Shown here: one piece after another, positions 36,155-37,374 of the stretch
Layout: every line of letters begins with the position of its first letter
How positions within the stretch are numbered: the stretch's first letter is position 1
Source: Wenzhouxiangella sp.
GTDB taxonomy: Bacteria; Pseudomonadota; Gammaproteobacteria; Xanthomonadales; Wenzhouxiangellaceae
Reading direction: 5' to 3'
Assembly: GCA_007123055.1 (NCBI GenBank)
Contig: SKSJ01000200.1
Location: 1 to 37,374 of the forward strand
Length of the DNA stretch: 37,374 nucleotides
Notes under the pieces: generated by a model
The model's input: the letters and a program-made list of their open reading frames with translations, nothing else
Told to the model about the DNA's origin: nothing
Database searches by the model: none
Program-made: the position numbers and the translations under genes

Positions 36155-37063
36155 GTGACTATACCAGCGTCAAGCGAGGAATCCACCCAAGAGCGACTGC
36201 TGGTCATCCAGGCCTCGTCGAACCGAGGCGTGGCCGCAAGACGCGACGGTGAGCTGGTCGGATTCCCCTTTCGTCGGCGCAGTGGCCGACCTTTGCCCGG
36301 CGATCGAATCAGCCTGGATGCGGCCGGCGCGCTCGATACCATCGCATCACGGGACAACATCTTCGGCCGCGGTGACGCCCGCGGGCGACTAAAGCCCATC
36401 GCCGCCAACCTCGACCAGGTCATCATCGTCATCGCGGCCGAACCGGCGCCCAGCCGGGATCTACTGCATCGCTATCTCGCCGCGGCCAACATTCAGGGAA
36501 TCCAGCCACTTGTCGTCGTCAACAAATGGGATCTCACACTTCCCGACAGCGCCCCTTTCAATGAACTCGAAGACCTGGGGTCACTGGGCTACGAGGTCAT
36601 ATGGACGCGCTGCACCGACGGCACTTCACTGGGTTGCCTGCCTGAACGTGTCGCCGGCAGAACAAGCCTGCTGGCCGGTCAATCCGGCGTCGGCAAGTCA
36701 TCTCTGCTCAATACCCTGATTCCCGACCTCGCCATACAGACCGGGGCCTTGTCACGAGTTACGGGCAAGGGCACGCACACCACCACATCCGCCACCCTGC
36801 ACCGCCTGGTGGAGGGTGGCTGGGTGGTCGACACCCCGGGTGTCTGGGAATATGGATTGTGGGCCATGGAGACCGCAACGTTGCAGCACGGCTTTCCCGA
36901 GTTCGCCAGGCATTCGGGAAGCTGTCGCTTCCGCAACTGTCGTCACCGCGACGAGCCCGGTTGTGCCATCCGCGCGGCCTCGGAAAACGGGACCATCCCC
37001 GCCTTTCGGCACGAAGCCTGGCTGCGACTACTGGCCGAACAGGAACGACTCAGAAGGCGCTAG
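36155..37063 (+). CDS. rsgA: Small ribosomal subunit biogenesis GTPase RsgA
   Basis: Circularly permuted GTPase: [38 protein letters not shown]; Zn motif [14 protein letters not shown]. Confidence 0.95.
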
Positions 37064-37078
37064 TGGGCCATGCGGTTA

Positions 37079-37374
37079 TTAGGTAACGCTCAGCCGTCGC
37101 ACAAGCCTCGTGGGCAAGGCGCGCGAGCGCAGGACTCGCCGTCGCCAATTCAAGCGAGCGGAACACGTGCAACGGCTTCACTCGCAAGGCTTCATTCGCT
37201 ACGTGAAAGTCGCCATGCGGTTTCGCCTGCCCTGCCCACGGCGCTTGTGCGGCGACCCTTCGGGAGCCACTGTGCTGGCGCGACTCGGCGTTGCGTTTCT
37301 TGGCAAGGACGCTGCCATTCCCTGCGAAACGCGCCTTGATTCGCGCCAGCACAGTGGCTCTGAGCGTTACCTAA
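37079..37374. mobile_element. MITE-like, non-coding palindromic element with 15-bp perfect terminal inverted repeats and two internal hairpins
   Basis: TTAGGTAACGCTCAG (37079-37093) / CTGAGCGTTACCTAA (37360-37374); AGCCACTGTGCTGGCGCGA (37265-37283) / its perfect complement at 37341-37359; imperfect stem 37096-37120 / 37229-37256. Confidence 0.75.

Follow-up and report, generated by a model that had tools for sequence, protein, structure and literature searches.

What is the palindromic sequence on which this contig breaks off, and how did it come to lie against rsgA? The window (the whole stretch of 37,374 nucleotides analysed here, one contig of a Wenzhouxiangella assembly) closes on nested inverted repeats that the initial annotation took for a MITE-like element of 296 bp. 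The ends, repeated copies, target site and shared arms can be read directly, as can the IS630-type ends of sister families, and from these sequence features the element is very probably a copy of a non-autonomous IS630/Tc1-mariner-type MITE family, mobilised in trans at the TA within CTAG.

Boundaries and architecture of the window copy

The 15-bp inverted repeats first proposed as termini are present, an exact match between 37079-37093 and 37360-37374, but copies in relatives run 19-20 bp further outward on both sides, giving a TIR of about 34 bp. Because the outer repeat of these relatives also stands in the window, as TAGTGGGCCATGCGGTTA at 37061-37078, the true left end is 37061, 18 bp beyond the earlier edge. 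On the other side the window stops about 19 bp before the true right terminus, the contig end having cut off that much of the outer TIR; the full right end is expected to read ...CCTAAT(T)AACCGCATGGCCCACTAG, followed by unique sequence. The portion present covers 314 bp (37061-37374, forward strand), as placed by alignment with 33 complete copies and with edges taken from flanked copies. A start 15 bp past the stop codon of rsgA (RsgA_GTPase, PF03193; 36155-37063, forward strand) was right for the repeat at 37079 but not for the element, whose true left end overlaps that codon: the element opens with the three bases of the rsgA TAG stop, within a left junction CTAG (37060-37063) derived from the CTAG target.

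The full form is laid out as TIR - arm A - CCCTTCGGG - arm B - TIR, and all parts of the window copy lie on the forward strand except the right TIR. The left TIR, TAGTGGGCCATGCGGTTATTAGGTAACGCTCAG (37061-37093), is followed by arm A (37095-37254), a long imperfect hairpin whose stem pairs 37095-37126 with 37223-37254 at 81%. Its tip carries an optional module of about 70 bp (37165-37233), missing in 268-bp copies and common to families 4 and 5, introduced below; the family of the window copy is family 1. The linker CCCTTCGGG (37256-37264), also present in the two-arm forms of families 4 and 5, joins arm A to arm B (37264-37360), where a stem of 19-23 bp pairs 37264-37286 with 37338-37360 at 96% and encloses a conserved apical core, TTGGCAAGGACGCTGCCATTCCCTGCG (37300-37326). 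The inner 15 bp of the right TIR, CTGAGCGTTACCTAA, occupy 37360-37374 on the reverse strand. Both annotated stems are therefore borne out, and the 296 bp fold as RNA at -169.6 kcal/mol, against -120.6 +/- 4.8 in shuffles (z = -10.1). The absence of a plausible protein also stands, the sole ORF of at least 100 aa over the element being a reverse frame of 100 aa that traverses the hairpins.

A dispersed family with sharp ends

The home assembly is a MAG of 2.47 Mb in 259 contigs, and a search of it returned about 7 separate copies, 6 of them cut at contig ends. This agrees with the earlier suggestion that the contig breaks at a multicopy repeat, and the break at just this point probably reflects small differences between copies there. 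Around the home genome, matches occur in 31 of 61 sampled genomes, 29 of these belonging to the same family, which contributes 37 genomes, so the proposal of a multicopy element with sharp, conserved ends holds at home and in relatives alike. Named contigs bearing the exact TIR come from Wenzhouxiangella limi and further Wenzhouxiangellaceae, among others. In relatives, complete copies start with TAGTGGGCCATGCGGYTAATTAGGTAACRCTCAG after an outer C and continue to its inverse, which closes in CTA before an outer G; in complete or long contigs the flanks extend symmetrically (ctagtgggccatgcggttaa-TTAGGTAACGCTCAG ... CTGAGCGTTACCTAA-ttaaccgcatggcccactag). Short, non-coding, bounded by 34-bp TIRs and dispersed in copies with sharp ends, the element shows these general features of a MITE.

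Copies range in length from 31 to 402 bp through the gain and loss of hairpin arms, with sizes of 31 (TIRs only), 38, 49, 90, 152-168, 188, 230, 245, 268, 334 and 402 bp. One-ended remnants are numerous and decayed, and several stop near the stop codon of a facing gene, where they look like deletion products. Plasmid and phage collections gave no match. An exact 15-mer scan of genome contigs returned mostly single matches outside the Wenzhouxiangellaceae, and viral contigs 13 single matches, all without a second end; both are put down to chance.

Insertion at CTAG and at stop codons

Distinct ends that start with TAGTGGGCC and sit in CTAG number more than 150. The base outside the TAG start is C at 146 of 160 scored distinct ends, and the opposite end mirrors it. 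Aligned flanks, which the initial annotation had named as the place to look for target-site duplications, gave the sharp ends but not the length of the duplication: with CTAG on both sides, duplications of TA and of CTAG give identical sequence, so that at CTAG targets, which make up nearly all of them, a duplication of 4 bp (IS5 or IS701 type) looks the same as one of TA. A few copies have an altered outer base and keep TAG...CTA (T/G at L131, G/G at L019, C/A at L159; also L295). By their sequence these exceptions favour, rather than prove, duplication of TA within CTAG, since they are few and point mutation could also explain them. A preference for the TA in CTAG has been reported for IS630 (Tenzen and Ohtsubo 1991, cited in PMC2170065).

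CTAG is a rare sequence, and the element inserts there, in this case within the rsgA stop codon. As the element itself begins with TAG, a neighbouring gene stays intact when its TAG stop receives an insertion. An open frame of 100 codons or more stops in frame at the left TAG in 60 of 160 ends, and at 28 of 143 CTAG sites taken from other parts of these loci; the element's TAG ends such a frame for at least one neighbour in 24 of 44 paired elements, and for both neighbours in 4. No relative whose rsgA 3' end was readable has an element at this site, a comparison made on the left flank alone, the contig ending inside the element. In three of them (G003, G009 and G024) rsgA ends CGC-TAG without an element, presumably the empty target. 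Insertion of this kind softens its own effect, a TAG-starting element aimed at CTAG supplying the very stop codon that it interrupts.

A transposase from an IS630-family element, supplied in trans, would recognise the 34-bp TIRs; the element would be cut out and pasted into the TA of CTAG; and TA, rather than 4 bp, would be duplicated, so that both junctions again read CTAG. With CTAG often lying at TAG stop codons in these genomes, such an insertion, as here at rsgA, would spare the neighbour. Inside the element, arms and arm tips are gained, lost and exchanged with sister families.

One copy in G018 is more complicated. At L292 1527-6149 (G018:C1:2584026-2588648) a family-1 copy lies where two convergent genes have their stop codons and carries a family-2 MITE together with an insertion of about 4 kb (IS21 istA/istB and a DDE_5 transposase, with TTAA flanks). 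The 4.6-kb span between its two ends had been considered as an autonomous element and was rejected on this composition.

Are the arms kept for a function?

Arms A and B are mutually similar. Across 34 aligned copies standard pairs make up 96.7% of paired cells, and two-sided changes affect 31 of 99 pairs, whereas shuffles give 12.9 and slid controls 10-14; in arm A (helix 2 of the pairing analysis) 96% of cells are paired and 10 of 21 pairs show two-sided changes, arm B being helix 6. Such changes keep the arms paired, and therefore the palindromes are maintained. Of 399 genomes in the order, 26 contain the apical core, two other families being represented among them, and 0 the reversed control pattern.

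Could the hairpins be host-functional elements (a bidirectional terminator, a stabiliser of mRNA 3' ends or a protein-binding site) that were spread by transposition and kept for what they do? This agrees with the preferred explanation as to origin, and the two-sided changes, the conservation of the apical core across families with differing TIRs and beyond the Wenzhouxiangellaceae within the order, and the excess of ends at stop codons over background CTAG sites all suit it. However, transposase recognition of the TIRs and arm-to-arm gene conversion also predict two-sided changes and could suffice to maintain pairing with no RNA function; related species lack an element at the rsgA site; many remnants are decayed and one-ended; and Rfam gave no match at gathering thresholds. 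Selection for a host function is on balance unlikely. (Weak Rfam miRNA matches fell far below the cut-off and are attributed to chance.) A similarly doubtful proposal is that these elements form a CTAG-targeted MITE superfamily in which the arm core is conserved while the TIRs have diversified, the arm then acting as a movable module with a function of its own, such as a transposition enhancer, a site for a host protein or a 3'-end structure for genes with occupied stop codons. The conserved core and diversified ends make the function of MITE interiors testable.

The transposase

The mobilising enzyme is most plausibly of the IS630 family. In genome G034 a 1.16-kb transposon (L260 1354-2511) encodes a 361-aa IS630-family transposase (NF033545, 278 bits; PF13358), and its ends share 25/34 and 22/34 identities with the TIRs of family 5. 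The family-1 TIR in turn shares 24/34 with family 5, while none of 73,732 background 34-mers from the rest of the window is equally similar. Compared directly, family-1 TIRs and IS630 ends are only weakly alike (18/34 and 14/34), so the link of family 1 to IS630 runs through family 5. Family 2 shares the ends of four IS630 transposons in G027. Taken together, the IS630 ends of sister families, the shared arms and the CTAG/TA target make it very probable that family 1 is an IS630-type MITE, most likely moved in trans.

A full-length relative with the same termini, which the initial annotation had suggested seeking, did not emerge: none of the IS630, DDE_5 and PF01609 elements (PF13358 and PF13546 included) in the genomes searched has a transposase gene between family-1 ends (TAGTGGGCCATGCGG). 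PF13358 is missing from most copy-rich genomes, and fragmented assemblies could conceal an autonomous copy. One IS630-like gene, partial and in AT-rich sequence with CTAGTAG ends, lies at L261 (G029:C224), a contig that may be a contaminant of that MAG.

Might a different transposase do the work, one with a CTAG or YTAR target and a 4-bp duplication, as in the IS5 group or the IS701 family? The near-constant CTAG sites would fit a 4-bp duplication equally well, and an IS21/DDE_5 stretch does lie inside one family-1 copy, at TTAA. Yet DDE_5 was found in 1 of 43 genomes only, the PF01609 elements found have other ends, and sister-family ends match IS630, which together make such an enzyme improbable. 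The one multicopy PF01609 element considered as an autonomous partner, with ends CACTAGTGTCCGG (1.3 kb, at least 8 copies in G018: L345, L348, L350, L352-L356), was set aside for its different ends and for the 9-bp duplication ACTTGACGT at the one copy read for it, L354. Movement by a RAYT (Y1 tyrosine transposase), as for a REP/REPIN-like palindrome, is very improbable: dispersed, mainly extragenic palindromes, short forms of 31-38 bp and Y1-type proteins adjoining some repeats recall it, but the perfectly symmetrical ends, each set in CTAG, the 34-bp TIRs and the two-armed forms of up to 402 bp differ from an asymmetric REP hairpin lacking TIR and target duplication, and the one Y1 gene inside a family-2 arm resembles an IS200 insertion (L294; G018:C1:1201500-1205500, where the gene is of the IS200 type).

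Relation to described elements

Bacterial MITEs with a terminal TA and stable folds are of a known kind, represented by Correia/NEMIS, ERIC and RUP (PMC2229807). RUP of Streptococcus pneumoniae, with IS630-Spn1 as its proposed mover, resembles family 1 in being small and non-coding, with TIRs, TA termini and a tie to IS630 through the ends (PMC2229807), whereas family 1 combines GC-rich sequence with a 34-bp TIR and two arms, and no partner with its exact ends was found; the likeness is one of description. Correia/NEMIS of Neisseria also ends in TA; its TIRs measure about 24 bp, and an internal block separates its two size classes (PMC2229807). Family 1, set apart from it by description rather than sequence, varies from 31 to 402 bp by hairpin arms and targets CTAG. 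ERIC/IRU of enterobacteria is likewise a dispersed palindrome with terminal TA and stable transcript folds (PMC2229807), but its TIR is 7 bp against 34 bp, and the portion of the source seen reports neither a CTAG rule nor a two-arm layout for it. The IS630 family, ISY100 among them, shares the TA target and its duplication, with a CTAG preference for IS630 (PMC2170065 and, cited there, Tenzen and Ohtsubo 1991); those elements are autonomous, with a transposase gene that family 1 does not have. Family 1 differs from known MITEs in that its arms are GC-rich, its target is strictly CTAG and its two-arm interior, common to several families, is modular. The literature searched, which covers less than all journals, held no description of these termini or of Wenzhouxiangella MITEs; the class is well known and the family itself apparently undescribed. 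With it, a bacterial family that has been little studied gains an apparently undescribed superfamily of modular MITEs, and the breaks in assemblies of its MAGs are explained.

Sister families

The same genomes carry further palindromic elements inserted in CTAG (sister families TAGTGGTCC... and TAGTGTACCCC...). Family 2 has the TIR TATTAACCCGGC and arms resembling those of family 1; family 3, TAGCCCGCATTATTCATGAA, occurs at 167 and 32 bp; family 4, TAGTGGTCCTTCAACCTGAT, measures 269 or 400 bp, and family 5, TAGTGTACCCCGCCACTCAT, 228, 269 or 403 bp. Arms are homologous among families 1, 2, 4 and 5, and the linker is common to 1, 4 and 5. As every insertion has a CTAG at each of its junctions, members of different families can stack. 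Roughly 15-25 of 208 family-1 ends adjoin the terminus of another family through a single shared CTAG; in this count the two search patterns for family 3 overlap, so that their 9 and 10 ends are not additive. In G018 family 2 is inserted inside family-1 TIRs with a TA duplication, and taking it out of the sequence together with one TA gives back the TIR consensus.

Outside the Wenzhouxiangellaceae, two loci in another family of the same order (L393 and L395, family f8) hold CTAG-bounded two-arm elements, with family-5-like and family-4-like ends. Around 149.5 kb in G027 (L192), members of families 4, 5, 1 and 3 are clustered and abut one another via shared CTAG.
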